In this document: one piece after another, positions 2,185 to 6,815 of the stretch | How the letters are laid out: every line of letters begins with the position of its first letter | Numbering within the stretch: the stretch's first letter is position 1 | Translations under genes and position numbers: made by a program | Assembly (NCBI GenBank): GCA_019694855.1 | Contig: JAIBBD010000022.1 | Location: forward strand, 1-33,506 | DNA from: Dehalococcoidia bacterium | GTDB taxonomy: Bacteria; Chloroflexota; Dehalococcoidia; UBA2979 | Direction of reading: 5' to 3' | Length of the DNA stretch: 33,506 bases | The notes under the pieces: model-generated | Told to the model about the DNA's origin: nothing | Seen by the model: only the letters and a program-made list of their open reading frames with translations | Databases searched by the model: none

Positions 2185-2403
2185 ATGGTCGAGAAGCCGA
2201 CGGATACGGGCGGGTCGCAGGCGGGTCAAACGCAAGCCAGCGGCGGCCTCGGCTACGCCGGGCCGGGCGGTGAGGGCGGCGCGCTCGCCGGGACGAGCGG
2301 GGTCAACCCCGCAACGAGTCCGAATCCGCACCCGCAGCCGACCGCGCCGCCGCCGCAGCAACCGGGCAGCCAGGGTGGCCAGGGCGGACAGGCGACCGGG
2401 TAG
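2185..2403 (+). CDS. Small Gly/Pro/Gln-rich protein with MVEKPT start
   Basis: A 72-residue open frame starting at ATG 2185 with a GAGGAAGG site about ten bases upstream. A longer in-frame start at 2044 exists but is poorly supported, because the extension looks non-coding. The N-terminus is MVEKPTDTGG. The rest is low-complexity: Gly/Ser/Gln-rich, then a Pro-rich patch (TAPPPQQPGSQ), then GGQGGQATG at the end. No hydrophobic segment or cysteine is present, so it should be cytoplasmic and disordered. I do not recognise a family. The downstream small gene begins with nearly the same words (MVVEKPT), and an amidoligase-like gene follows, so the three may belong together. Confidence 0.5.
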   Translation: MVEKPTDTGGSQAGQTQASGGLGYAGPGGEGGALAGTSGVNPATSPNPHPQPTAPPPQQPGSQGGQGGQATG

Positions 2404-2481
2404 CGGCAGCCTGCTGACGTACGACGAGCGTCGCCGGTATGCGCGATGGCTCGTCGCAATGCGGGCCGAGAGCGGGGGTGC

Positions 2482-2742
2482 ATGGTGGTTGAGAAGCCGA
2501 CCGCGAGCACGACCGACGTGTTCCCGGGCGATGTAGTGCCGGTCTCGCTGTCCGATCCGGGCCTGCATCTCACGCCAGAGGAGCAGCGGACGATCCGGAA
2601 GTGGCTGGGATACCTCCGAGGCGAGGCGGGGCTGTCCGACGAGCAGGTCGCGGAGATGAACCGGGATCACGACGGGTTAAGTGAAAGCGCGCGACAGGTG
2701 TGGGACGCGGTCTTTGCCGACGAACTGAAGATCAAGGACTAG
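2482..2742 (+). CDS. Small hypothetical protein with MVVEKPT start
   Basis: An 86-residue frame from ATG 2482; an in-frame ATG at 2446 would add 12 residues. The chosen start is preferred because its N-terminus MVVEKPTAST matches that of the preceding small protein (MVEKPTDTGG). The body is charged and predicted mostly helical, with LTPEEQRTIRKWLGYLR, GLSDEQVAEMNRDHDG and ARQVWDAVFADELKIKD. It has no cysteines, membrane segment or signal peptide. I do not recognise a domain. It ends 40 bases before the amidoligase-like gene on the same strand, so co-transcription is plausible. Confidence 0.6.
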   Translation: MVVEKPTASTTDVFPGDVVPVSLSDPGLHLTPEEQRTIRKWLGYLRGEAGLSDEQVAEMNRDHDGLSESARQVWDAVFADELKIKD

Positions 2743-2782
2743 CGTCGGCACCGCACACTGAACGAGTCGCGGCAAACCTGCG

Positions 2783-4957
2783 TTGACCGTCGCCGCTGCC
2801 GCGCCGCGCTACATCAATGGCGAGCTGCAGCGACTCCTCGGCAGCAGTGAACGAGGCTCCGAGGCGGGGAGTCTGCTCGGGATTGAGCACGAGTTCTACC
2901 TCGTTCGCGGTGGACAGCCGCTCGACTTTCGCCCACTGATCCACACGCTGCCGATTCGCGGCGGGCGCCTGGACCCGGGCGACACGAACTCGTACCGGTG
3001 CGCGTCAGGCATCTCGATCACCTGCGATGAGGCGGAGGCCGAGTTCGCCTCGCCGCCCATCGAGGTGCGACCCGGGTTCATATCGGAGCTCGACCGCTGG
3101 GTGCGCCTCGGGCGTGCCGAGTTGCGGGCGGCGCTGCCCGCGGACGTTGAGATGGTGGGCGCATCGACGCACCTCAGCGTCGCGGTGCCGGACGCGCTCG
3201 GTGACCTCGTGTGTTTCATCCTCGCGCGGGCGTTCGCGCCGGCGCTGATGATGGTGCTCGACCGGCGCGACTCGTTCGGCATCGACCTGCGGCCGCGGGC
3301 GGGCCGGGTCGAGCTGTGCGGGGAGTTCGCGGATGGCCCACGGCTTGGCGCAGCGGCCGCGCTGCTTGCCGGGAGCGTGCGCGCGTGCGTGGCGGCCCTC
3401 GAGGGGGCCGCGGCCCCGCTGCCGCCGTTGCTCCGCGTGCGGGTCGATGAGGCCACCGAGCGCTACGGGTTTCGCGTGCTGCGCCGCGCGTTCGGCGGCG
3501 ACCTGTACGAGGAGGGGCGGGCGGCACGCCTCGTGCAGTCCGACGGTGGCGAGCTGACCGCGCAGGGGCATCTCGAACGAGTGTGGGCAGTGGCGCGGGC
3601 TGCGCCCGGCAATGCGCTGTCAGAGGAGGACGGTGCAGCCGTCGAGGCGATCGTCACGGGACGGCGGTCGCTCGGCATCGAGGAGCACGCTGTCGAGGGC
3701 GTCCCCGACGCCGTCATCGACGACCTCGTGGCGCCCGGGTCCGTGTTCTCGTCGGTCGTTGTCCCGCGCGAGCGGCCCGGATTCGAGGTGCGTCCGCGGA
3801 TCGTGACGTGGGCGTTCGCGGTGCTCGAAGTGCGGGGCGCGGCGAGGACGGTGTTCCTGTGCGCGCCGCGCCCCGCACTTCCGCCGCTCCTCGCAGCACT
3901 GGACCGGGGAGCACTCGACGAGATCGTCGGGCTGTATCTGACGTCACCCCCGCCAGGCCGCCGGCTCGTGTCGGCGGCGGAAACGCACCGAGCGGCGTTG
4001 TGGGACGAGATCGGAAGCCCGGCGGGGCTGCTCGCGGAGGAGTACGAGCTCGACCAGCTTCGCACGGGTGCGGTCGGCCGCGCGCTCGCCCTCGGGAGGC
4101 TGTACCCGCCGCGACGGGAGGCGCTGCCCACGACCGTAACGGCGGCCGCGGAGTCACCCCTCGAACTCGCGACGCATTCCGTCACAGATCGGGCCGCGCC
4201 TTCCGACGAGGGCACGCTTCAGCACGTCGAAACGGCGCCCGAGGCATCATCGTCGCTTCTCGAATCCCGGATCGAGCGAGGGGTGGTCGCCGCGCGTCCC
4301 TCAGCTGTGCGGCGAGGGAAGTTCGTACCCGTCGCGACATCGGCGCGAGAGGAGGCGACGGAGCACCGGCGACCGTGGTTGCTGCTCTTCGTGGGGCTCG
4401 GGCTGTTGCTCCTCGTGGCGACCGTGGCCTGGTTGCTGACACGACCGGAGGAGGCCCCGGCGCCGCGCATCGAGGAGACGCCGGCCGGCATTGCGACAGC
4501 GGTCGTCACGCCCTCGGCGGTCGTCAGCACTCCAACCGCGACCGTCACGGAGACCGCGCCGACGCCGGCGGCACCCGTCCTCAGCGGGGACTACGACGTC
4601 CGGTTGGTGGTGGAGAGCAACCCGGGAGGCCACCCCGCGGACCTCATCGACGTGTCCTCGATCAACCTGCTCGTTGGACGGGACCGGTCGGTCGAGCCCA
4701 ACCCCGTGCGCATTGAACTGCGGATTGGGGACGTGACGCTCGTGGGCGCGACTCAAATCGGGCCATCGTTCGGGGCGGGAGGTGGCTCGTTTACCGCGTC
4801 GGGTGTCGCGCCGTACCGGGGGTTCTCGACGAGCTGGACGTTCGAGGGGAACGTGACCGCAGGACGCGGCCTGAGCGGCACGCTCACTATTGGCGGCGAC
4901 GGGCGGTTGCCCGGCGGCCGGGCGATCGCGTATCGCCTCGACGGGACCAGGCGATAG
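2783..4957 (+). CDS. Membrane-anchored amidoligase-like (GCS2/carboxylate-amine ligase-like) protein
   Basis: A 724-residue protein; the first usable start is TTG 2783, without a convincing ribosome binding site, so the start is uncertain. Residues ~30-450 resemble the glutamine-synthetase-fold carboxylate-amine ligases: LGIEHEFYLV near residue 33 (the G-x-E-x-E-F ATP/Mg motif), then SGISITCDEAEAEFASPP (a D-x5-E-[FY]-x-[ST]-P pattern as in GCS2, YbdK and Pup ligase/Dop) and RVELCGEFADGPRLG. A disordered Ser/Glu-rich linker leads to one hydrophobic helix at about residues 531-555 (LLLFVGLGLLLLVATVAWLL), a Thr/Pro-rich spacer and a ~120-residue beta-rich tail predicted to lie outside the membrane. 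Positively charged residues (EHRRPW) before the helix put the ligase-like part in the cytoplasm. This fusion is unusual for the family. Substrate and activity are unknown; two small MV(V)EKPT proteins precede it. Confidence 0.65.
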   Translation: MTVAAAAPRYINGELQRLLGSSERGSEAGSLLGIEHEFYLVRGGQPLDFRPLIHTLPIRGGRLDPGDTNSYRCASGISITCDEAEAEFASPPIEVRPGFISELDRWVRLGRAELRAALPADVEMVGASTHLSVAVPDALGDLVCFILARAFAPALMMVLDRRDSFGIDLRPRAGRVELCGEFADGPRLGAAAALLAGSVRACVAALEGAAAPLPPLLRVRVDEATERYGFRVLRRAFGGDLYEEGRAARLVQSDGGELTAQGHLERVWAVARAAPGNALSEEDGAAVEAIVTGRRSLGIEEHAVEGVPDAVIDDLVAPGSVFSSVVVPRERPGFEVRPRIVTWAFAVLEVRGAARTVFLCAPRPALPPLLAALDRGALDEIVGLYLTSPPPGRRLVSAAETHRAALWDEIGSPAGLLAEEYELDQLRTGAVGRALALGRLYPPRREALPTTVTAAAESPLELATHSVTDRAAPSDEGTLQHVETAPEASSSLLESRIERGVVAARPSAVRRGKFVPVATSAREEATEHRRPWLLLFVGLGLLLLVATVAWLLTRPEEAPAPRIEETPAGIATAVVTPSAVVSTPTATVTETAPTPAAPVLSGDYDVRLVVESNPGGHPADLIDVSSINLLVGRDRSVEPNPVRIELRIGDVTLVGATQIGPSFGAGGGSFTASGVAPYRGFSTSWTFEGNVTAGRGLSGTLTIGGDGRLPGGRAIAYRLDGTRR

Positions 4958-5081: not shown

Positions 5082-6815
5082 CTACTTATCGAGCCAGGCG
5101 CCAGCGCCGACGATGGCACCGTCGTCGTAGGAGAGCGAGTTGCCCCAGTTGCCGCCGCGCACGCCTCGGACCCAGGGCTGCAGCGGGGTGAAGCCGTAGC
5201 CGACGGGGGTCGAGAGGCGGTACTGCTTCTCGTTGTGGTAGTCCCAGAGCTTGCGGTGGATCTCGCGGCGCTTCGCGGGGTCGAGCTCGACCTGCTGCTG
5301 CTCCGCCCAGGTGTCGCTCTGGGCGTCCTTGATGCGCCAGCGGTTGCCCGGCGACTTCGAGTGGATCTGGTTGTAGAACCAGTTGTCGGCGTCGAAGCCG
5401 GCGGTTCCCCAGCCGCTGGTGGTGGCGTCCGCGATCTTGGCTCCGACCCACTGCGAGTTGAACTCGGTGTAGTCGGCCTGCTGGTTCTTCAGGGTGACGC
5501 CGACGGCTCGCAGCTGGTCGACCAGGAGGTCGGAGACGCGGCTGTTGGTCGACGTGTACTGGTAGTAGTTGGAGTTGATCTCGAGGCCGGCCGCACCAGC
5601 GGCGTCGAGGAGCCGCTTGCCCTCGGCAGGGTCGAACTTCATGAAGCGGCCGAGCTGGTCGCCGGTGGGGAGCTTGTCGAAGACGAAGGGCCAGGGGATC
5701 GCAGGGAGGGCGAGGCCGAGCTTGTCGAGCACGACGTTGATGATCGTGTTGTGGTCGACGGCGAGGGCGAGGCCCTGGCGGACGCGGTCGTCCTTGTACT
5801 TCGGGAGGTCGAGGTTGAAGGCGACCGTGAAGGTGGTGTTCAGGGGAGCGGACATGAAGAAGCGGACGTCGGGCGTCGTCTTCTCCAGGTTCTTCGCATC
5901 GGTGATGTTGTCGACGAAGGGGTAGCCGTAGTCGATCTGGCGGGAGCGGAAGGCGGCGAGGCGCGCCGCGGGGTCGGGGATGATCTTGTACTCGAAGGCG
6001 TCGAGCAGGACGGGGCGCTGGAAGTACTCGGGATTGCGCTCGAAGTAGGCGCGCTGGCCGTCGATGGCTTCCTTGAGGAGCATCGGGCCGGTGCCGATGG
6101 CCTTCTTCTCGATGCTGCCGTCGTCGACGAGCTCCTTCGGGATGATGGGGATGTAGCGTCCTGCGAGGGGCATGATGAAGTCGGCGACGGGGCGCTTCAT
6201 CGTGATCTTGAGGGTGGTGGGGTTCACGGCGTCGACCGAGGCGACGTTCGCGAAGTAGGACTGCTGGGGGCCGCCCGCGGCGTAGCGGTCATAGGAGAAC
6301 TTGACGTCGTCGGCGACGAGGGTGCGGCCGTTGACGGGCGCAACGTTATGGAACTTCGCGTTCGAGACGAGCTTGAAGGTGTAGGTGAGTCCGTCCGGGG
6401 TGCGCTCCCAGCTCGAGGCGAGCTCTGGGATGAGGTCGAGACGGAAGGGGTCCATGTCGACGCCGCGCTTGAAACCAAGGAGGCGGTTGTAGACAAAGTT
6501 GGTGACCATCAGGGTGCCGCCGGCGGACGTCTTCGCAGGGTCGAAGATCGAGATGGCGTAGGTCGTTCCATAGCGCATCGTGCCGCCGGTCTTGGGCGCG
6601 CCGGCCGGGTCGGGGGCCTGGAAGGGGTAGGGGAGATTGGGGTCGCGGATGACTCCCGGCTCCGCGGTGGCCGCGGCGGTCGCGCTGCTCGAGGCGGCGG
6701 GGGAGCCCTCGTCATCACTGCCGCAGCCGAGCAGCGCGGCGGCGAGGAGGCCTGCTCCTCCGAGGGCGCCGGTGCGCAGCAGCGTCTTGCGGCTGATGAG
6801 CTGGTTGTCGGTCAC
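5082..6815 (-). CDS. Family 5 extracellular solute-binding lipoprotein (peptide/oligopeptide ABC type)
   Basis: A 577-residue protein from GTG 6815, preceded by AAGGTGG; an ATG at 6857 adds 14 residues without a better site. The N-terminus has SRKTLLRTG, a hydrophobic stretch and the lipobox LLGC with Cys at about 31, followed by a Ser/Ala-rich tether. The arginine-lysine pair before the hydrophobic core could also suit Tat export. The mature part has the SBP_bac_5 signature: GGTMRYGT near the start, ELASSWERTPDGLTYTFKL, KFHNVAPVNGRTLVADDVKFS, GTGPMLLKEA, NPEYFQRPVLLDAFEYKIIPD, RQGLALAVDH. Such proteins deliver peptides, nickel-chelates or other solutes to a DppBCDF-type permease. No permease or ATPase gene is nearby, so it is an orphan here; the ligand cannot be told. 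Confidence 0.93.
   Translation of the reverse strand: MTDNQLISRKTLLRTGALGGAGLLAAALLGCGSDDEGSPAASSSATAAATAEPGVIRDPNLPYPFQAPDPAGAPKTGGTMRYGTTYAISIFDPAKTSAGGTLMVTNFVYNRLLGFKRGVDMDPFRLDLIPELASSWERTPDGLTYTFKLVSNAKFHNVAPVNGRTLVADDVKFSYDRYAAGGPQQSYFANVASVDAVNPTTLKITMKRPVADFIMPLAGRYIPIIPKELVDDGSIEKKAIGTGPMLLKEAIDGQRAYFERNPEYFQRPVLLDAFEYKIIPDPAARLAAFRSRQIDYGYPFVDNITDAKNLEKTTPDVRFFMSAPLNTTFTVAFNLDLPKYKDDRVRQGLALAVDHNTIINVVLDKLGLALPAIPWPFVFDKLPTGDQLGRFMKFDPAEGKRLLDAAGAAGLEINSNYYQYTSTNSRVSDLLVDQLRAVGVTLKNQQADYTEFNSQWVGAKIADATTSGWGTAGFDADNWFYNQIHSKSPGNRWRIKDAQSDTWAEQQQVELDPAKRREIHRKLWDYHNEKQYRLSTPVGYGFTPLQPWVRGVRGGNWGNSLSYDDGAIVGAGAWLDK

Follow-up and report, generated by a model that had tools for sequence, protein, structure and literature searches.

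The question raised by this locus is why two small proteins with the same N-terminus are encoded directly before a membrane-anchored enzyme of the GS fold, and whether they could be its substrates or partners. We analysed the window, which is the whole stretch of 33,506 nucleotides from a Dehalococcoidia bacterium (contig JAIBBD010000022.1), together with the relatives of the enzyme in other genomes.

Genes of the locus

The three plus-strand genes of the original prediction were all recovered. Small tagged protein 1 (2185..2403, 72 aa, disordered) starts with MVEKPT, small tagged protein 2 (2482/2485..2742) has 86 or 85 aa, and both are proposed to be substrates or partners of the third product, a putative membrane-anchored PafA/Dop-like GS-fold ligase of 724 aa with a TTG start (2783..4957). 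Translation of the second small gene from the ATG at 2482 gives MVVEKPT and from the GTG at 2485 gives MVEKPT; the match between the two N-termini is exact for the GTG start. The pattern RTGGBNGARAARCCNAC, coding for M[GVA]EKPT, was found in the host genome only at the two window sites and was absent from 19 relatives.

The flanking genes looked ordinary when their translations were judged by eye: thiolase-like and DUF35-like genes on the left and a peptide ABC-transporter binding protein on the right, all in the opposite direction. None of the three window genes matched a Pfam, NCBIfam or PADLOC family, and no PADLOC model of known anti-phage defence was matched. For the 724-aa protein, Pfam gave no family at E <= 1 and a sequence search of the PDB gave no match; the small proteins had no significant PDB match either.

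Fold of the enzyme and its known relatives

A GS-type ligase fold had been predicted from short sequence words. The AlphaFold2 model, built from a 13-sequence alignment (pLDDT 88.6), places the catalytic GS-fold domain at residues ~25-420 (2855..4042, plus strand). Foldseek matched it best to PafA (4bjr, 1.3e-7) and Dop (~1.2e-6), followed by YbdK (5e-5). VIA-align gave Z 18.9 to Dop over 322 residues (model 29-383), Z 17.8 to PafA over 318 residues and Z 17.8 to YbdK (1tt4) over 243 residues, with glutamate-cysteine ligases at Z 14-16 and glutamine synthetases at ~10. The fold match is strong, and best to PafA/Dop. The PafA/Dop alignments reach model residue 380-403, whereas those of YbdK and glutamate-cysteine ligase end at 310-327. 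Only PafA and Dop align much past residue 320, so they alone match what follows the GS core. A small C-terminal domain of ~70 residues follows the GS-type domain in PafA/Dop (PMC3511204).

The profile-profile alignment to PafA/Dop is very weak (hhalign, probability 7%) but in register, with GIEHEF on GIETEYG and TCDEAEAEFASPP on YVDHAHPEYSSPE. At this low probability, D82 aligns with Dop's catalytic loop Asp, a residue described as a base or nucleophile (PMC3511204; PMC8599861). PF03136 was matched at no enzyme locus of the family; the same search detected ordinary PafA/Dop in seven actinomycetal carriers, besides the family enzyme, and in none of the 15 Chloroflexota carriers. As modelled, the enzyme has PafA/Dop as its closest structural neighbours and probably works like them, without being a PF03136 member.

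The likeness to PafA/Dop includes the fold, with an alignment that continues past the GS core, the GhExE motif, the active-site loop Asp, two active-site Arg, and the gene position beside a small, often disordered partner. It extends to membrane anchoring, known in some Pup ligases (a four-TM insert in Plesiocystis/Rhodopirellula, PMC2588565). In contrast to PafA/Dop, the family enzyme has ~12% identity with them and no PF03136 sequence match, a single TM helix with an outer stalk, no recognised proteasome genes beside it, and diverse partners, several per genome, which are conserved at the N-terminus and, L034 excepted, lack a GGE/GGQ end. Among the 42 tagged proteins collected, a Pup-type G[EQ] end was found only at L034 (GGE) and L072 (TGE).

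YbdK and GCS2 enzymes (PF04107) have in common with the family the GS-fold core, the GhExE motif and the architecture of the first 300 residues, but the family enzyme has no Pfam match, the structural match stops at ~residue 310, and YbdK/GCS2 substrates are small molecules; no tagged partner genes are known for YbdK/GCS2. UBact is likewise a small disordered protein encoded beside a PafA-type enzyme. Unlike the partners described here, the modifiers of UBact and of the Pup systems in other phyla are homologous to Pup and end in G[EQ], and their ligases belong to the PafA family. Pup itself occurs outside actinobacteria (PMC2588565).

The nearness to Dop also raises the opposite activity, in which the bond at the tag would be hydrolysed (deamidation or deconjugation) rather than made. 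Dop has the highest Z (18.9), and the active-site loop has the Asp-to-Glu spacing of Dop (D-x4-E), not that of PafA. However, PafA comes first by Foldseek, no second, bond-making enzyme is encoded nearby, and the stretch from E37 to D82 (45 residues) is near that of PafA and shorter than in Dop with its extra Dop-loop, making removal very unlikely in our estimate.

Spread and conserved residues of the enzyme family

We detected the enzyme family at 27 loci in 24 genomes of Chloroflexota and Actinomycetota, with a sporadic distribution that is universal in no clade. Profile searches matched 9 of the 393 genomes of the host's class, including G116, which was spurious on inspection. A GTDB scan gave 11 loci, Actinomycetota included, and further ones came from the classes of those hits and from the phylum. 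The weak matches in G116 (L012/L023), which are antisense of a P450-like gene, and the weak match in G928 (L190) were rejected as enzyme loci on inspection. The sequences are nearly all from draft genomes, mostly metagenome-assembled, and genes were called with a purpose-made simple coding model.

The predicted G-x-E-x-E-F word was located as GIEHEF at residues 33-38. The second word, proposed as D-x5-E-[FY]-x-[ST]-P, is better read as TCDEAEAEFASPP, in which neither D82 nor E87 varies among the 22 aligned sequences. The GhExE motif, G-[ILV]-E-x-E, is invariant in the 22 sequences, and the invariant residues include G33, E35, E37, D82, E87, S128-T129-H130, R170, R172, R175, E177 and R227. In the window protein these are the catalytic-domain residues of GIEHE (E35, E37), the catalytic-loop D82, E87, STH (H130), R170/R172/R175/E177 and R227. 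They agree with the arrangement that Iyer et al. (PMC2588565) defined for PafA as a GS-fold carboxylate-amine ligase, except for the strand-4 motif, where H-x-S is commoner than H-x-N.

A second enzyme copy is present on another contig of the host genome, with 40% identity over residues 19-450, and is cut by the contig end. This truncated ligase (L003:13481-14900, G000:C26) belongs to a second copy of the system, has an RVGK/RPGK linker, and the copy adjoins an isoleucyl-tRNA-synthetase-like gene. The ligase genes of L073, L034 and L069 look rearranged or frameshifted, suggesting possible decay or assembly errors; at L073 (oriented 1867-2973) the C-terminal part precedes the N-terminal part.

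Conserved N-terminal tag of the partner proteins

The N-terminus common to the two window proteins proved to be a feature of the whole family. At 23 of the 27 loci, a small gene with an M-x(0-2)-E-K start was found next to or near the enzyme gene, so the small genes consistently accompany the relatives of the enzyme, while ~2 of ~407 other called genes in the same regions (~0.5%) start in this way. The M-x(0-2)-E-K start beside the enzyme is not due to chance. The commonest forms are MGEKG and MGEKE: MGEKG was detected at L026, L027, L065-L071, L073 and L189, and MGEKE/MGEKA at L003, L015-L018, L020 and L021. The other forms are MEKGN (L028, and three in tandem at L064), MSEKP (L019), MGEKP (L030, divergent) and MVEKPT, twice in the window. 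MGE without Lys starts the partners at L072 (MGELG) and L034 (MGESP), and a tagged small gene is absent at L022 (a fragment) and L074 (a contig edge). The two partners without the tag Lys (L034:5667-5891; L072, oriented 5090-5686) end in GGE and TGE, respectively, like the C-terminus of Pup, and the L034 protein is Cys-rich and zinc-ribbon-like.

The tag Glu is present in 42/42 and the Lys in 40/42 of the collected tagged proteins. Most of these were collected because they match the tag, and therefore the weight rests on 25 of the 27 enzyme loci. A late case was a relative in G1135, an AT-richer Chloroflexota genome, which was found by the enzyme profile only and has an MGEKGQ gene preceded by a clear ribosome-binding site, AAAGGAGATAAAA. 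The GGQGGQATG end of small protein 1, to which the original prediction had drawn attention, is not conserved, the conserved part being the N-terminus; a Pup-like role of this end was dropped because the C-terminus is not conserved among the tagged proteins.

The codons of the tag vary (GAG/GAA, AAG/AAA, GGC/GGT, with ATG or GTG starts), indicating selection on the peptide, and a nucleotide-level signal was ruled out on this basis. The same evidence bears on the idea of a YbdK/GCS2-type small-molecule ligase with unrelated neighbours, the tag being a feature of translation initiation or of the mRNA. Amino acids are common substrates of GS-fold ligases of comparable size, and the structural match to YbdK agrees with such a role. 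However, the tag is conserved as protein in spite of these alternative codons and follows the enzyme across phyla, also in unlinked genes; this explanation was already disfavoured and is highly improbable.

Partner bodies and unlinked tagged genes

Most of the bodies that follow the tag are unrelated to each other, being disordered, helical, zinc-ribbon-like or built of repeats. Several modules are common to tagged proteins across phyla: NLNSSKSN, INTTRSNIKN / INTSHSNIKN, KSKSNITNN, GIAIDEEGVQR, FIKMGSVEGE and GTLTVSGTPGG. The 208-aa MGEKET protein encoded at L003:12826-13452 has seven SN-containing repeats ([LIV]N-x-S-[KRH]-SN and variants). The tagged proteins of L071 and L164, which come from different Chloroflexota classes, have the module GTLTVSGTPGGTAVG / GTLTVSGSPGGSATG in common. 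In G327, the MGEKE protein of 624+ aa at L169:2511-4382 has a stretch, AAHEAAHVVQQRE, that weakly matches the eCIS core domain PF13699 (E 0.022), together with repeats of GKTAIGDPDFDLLSA.

Such repeats bring in the main rival explanation, a RiPP-like maturation in which the M-x-E-K start would be a leader or recognition sequence, the ligase would make amide links within the repeats, and the modified peptides would be released. Several tagged proteins are multi-repeat, with short modules common to genera and even phyla, their spacers are acidic or Pro-rich as in multi-core precursors, and one enzyme would serve several precursors per genome. Repeat-bearing precursors beside an amide-forming ligase are also a feature of the graspetide/microviridin systems, but the enzymes of those systems are ATP-grasp proteins of another fold, and the family has many partners without repeats and no accompanying protease or transporter. 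The tagged proteins without repeats include both window proteins, those of L026, L027 and L073, and the zinc-ribbon-like ones of L019 and L034, and no peptidase or exporter recurs beside the genes at the family loci. The residue before SN varies (K, R, H), so no single side chain of the repeat is the obvious ligation partner, and anchoring in the membrane with the active site in the cytoplasm would be unusual for RiPP enzymes. We consider this maturation unlikely.

In three enzyme-bearing genomes, G109, G343 and G831, pattern scans also detected free-standing tagged genes at sites distant from the enzyme; G109 has two of them together next to uvrB and one more at another place. Most unlinked MGEK[GE] matches lie inside longer reading frames or lack a ribosome-binding site, and the count was restricted to matches called as free-standing small genes. 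The linkage to the enzyme, the conservation of the tag across phyla and these genes elsewhere lend strong support to the proposed role of the small proteins as substrates or partners. MGEKE genes were also found in G304, G317, G327 and G351 (69-82% complete), where the enzyme was not detected, which argues against strict dependence on it. Tagged genes stand beside uvrB at L172, L170, L020 and L021, with the ligase there in some only; the site is possibly a hot spot or a remnant of ligase loss.

Membrane part and the R-x-G-K motif

The predicted membrane helix is present at residues ~530-548 (4370..4432, plus strand). It is preceded by an RRGK motif in the cytoplasmic linker (residues 510-513, 4310..4321, plus strand) and followed by a predicted extracytoplasmic Thr/Pro-rich stalk and C-terminal domain (4433..4954, plus strand); the outer part folded alone and with no alignment gave pLDDT 44, so the beta-rich outer domain put forward in the original prediction is a tentative description. 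Most relatives have the same order of catalytic domain, linker, one membrane helix and outer Thr/Pro-rich stalk, and Cys hairpins (CPPGQVC, CTPGPNC) are frequent in the stalks. In L018, L067, L068, L070 and L071, the stalks have repeated C-x(4-6)-C hairpins (CTPGPNC, CLPGEVC, CPAGVAC).

R-x-G-K occurs in 11 of 16 linkers of the fused family members, in 18 copies, compared with a mean of 0.33 and a maximum of 4 in 5000 for shuffled linkers. The catalytic domain stands alone, with a membrane protein encoded adjacent, at L028, L064, L065, L066, L069 and L074. The cytoplasmic N-terminus of the separate membrane protein has R-x-G-K at L069 and L074, and at L028 the membrane protein is of reversed topology with the cytoplasmic end ...DRPGKGAGG. 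From these positions, the catalytic domain is predicted to share its side of the membrane with the tag proteins and R-x-G-K. The L067/L068/L070/L071 subclade and the split loci L065/L066 lack R-x-G-K, which rules the motif out as an acceptor for the whole family; in that subclade another acceptor must exist.

The position of this motif also bears on the possibility that a small amine (an amino acid, polyamine or similar) is ligated to the tag Glu, a labelling rather than a protein-protein conjugation. The structural matches next in rank, YbdK and glutamate-cysteine ligase, act with small amines, and a constant tag on varied bodies would be explained with no need for a protein acceptor. Such labelling leaves both R-x-G-K beside the membrane helix and the extra region matched by PafA/Dop only unexplained, and appears quite unlikely.

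Discussion

Taken together, the enzyme and its M-x-E-K partners point to an undescribed protein-tagging or peptide-modifying system of Chloroflexota and Actinomycetota. The best explanation, to which we give slightly less than an even chance, is a membrane-bound GS-fold ligase that recognises the N-terminal tag and joins the tag Glu to an amine, tethering the small proteins. Its observed part is the fold, the family, the linkage, the tag conservation and the position of R-x-G-K.

The proposed enzyme would be an ATP-dependent carboxylate-amine ligase that a single helix anchors at the inner side of the membrane, its stalk lying outside. It would recognise proteins with the short tag M-(G/V/S)-E-K, whose genes are adjacent to its own and in some cases at other genomic sites. 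If it acts as PafA does, it would phosphorylate the invariant tag Glu on the side-chain carboxylate and then join this Glu to an amine. The likeliest acceptor would be a lysine on the enzyme's own side of the membrane, and the R-x-G-K lysine next to the helix is the first candidate; PafA self-pupylation is a precedent for self-modification (PMC4783102). The outcome would be diverse small, mostly disordered proteins covalently tethered to the membrane anchor. Catalysis, Glu as the donor, Lys as the acceptor and tethering as the outcome are what we infer in this scheme. The repeats in many partners (LNSSKSN, SNIKNN, GIAIDEEGVQR) suggest something beyond tethering.

A more specific proposal is a Pup-like conjugation unrelated to proteasomal degradation, in which the Glu of an N-terminal MGEK-type tag, and not a C-terminal Glu, would attach many different small proteins covalently to a lysine close to the membrane. 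The membrane-anchored ligase would act in trans on several tagged proteins of each genome, in lineages mostly without Pup. We regard it as a possible, though rather doubtful, version. Neither the family nor the tag was found described in the open-access papers searched.

The best-studied joining of proteins by a GS-fold enzyme is pupylation. If the proposed activity is true, the short M-x-E-K tag would be directly testable and the catalytic Asp open to mutation, and a new N-terminal bioconjugation tool would be possible. The family would then be a second, separate one with its own short N-terminal tag, meaning that GS-fold chemistry would have been recruited more than once for protein modification.
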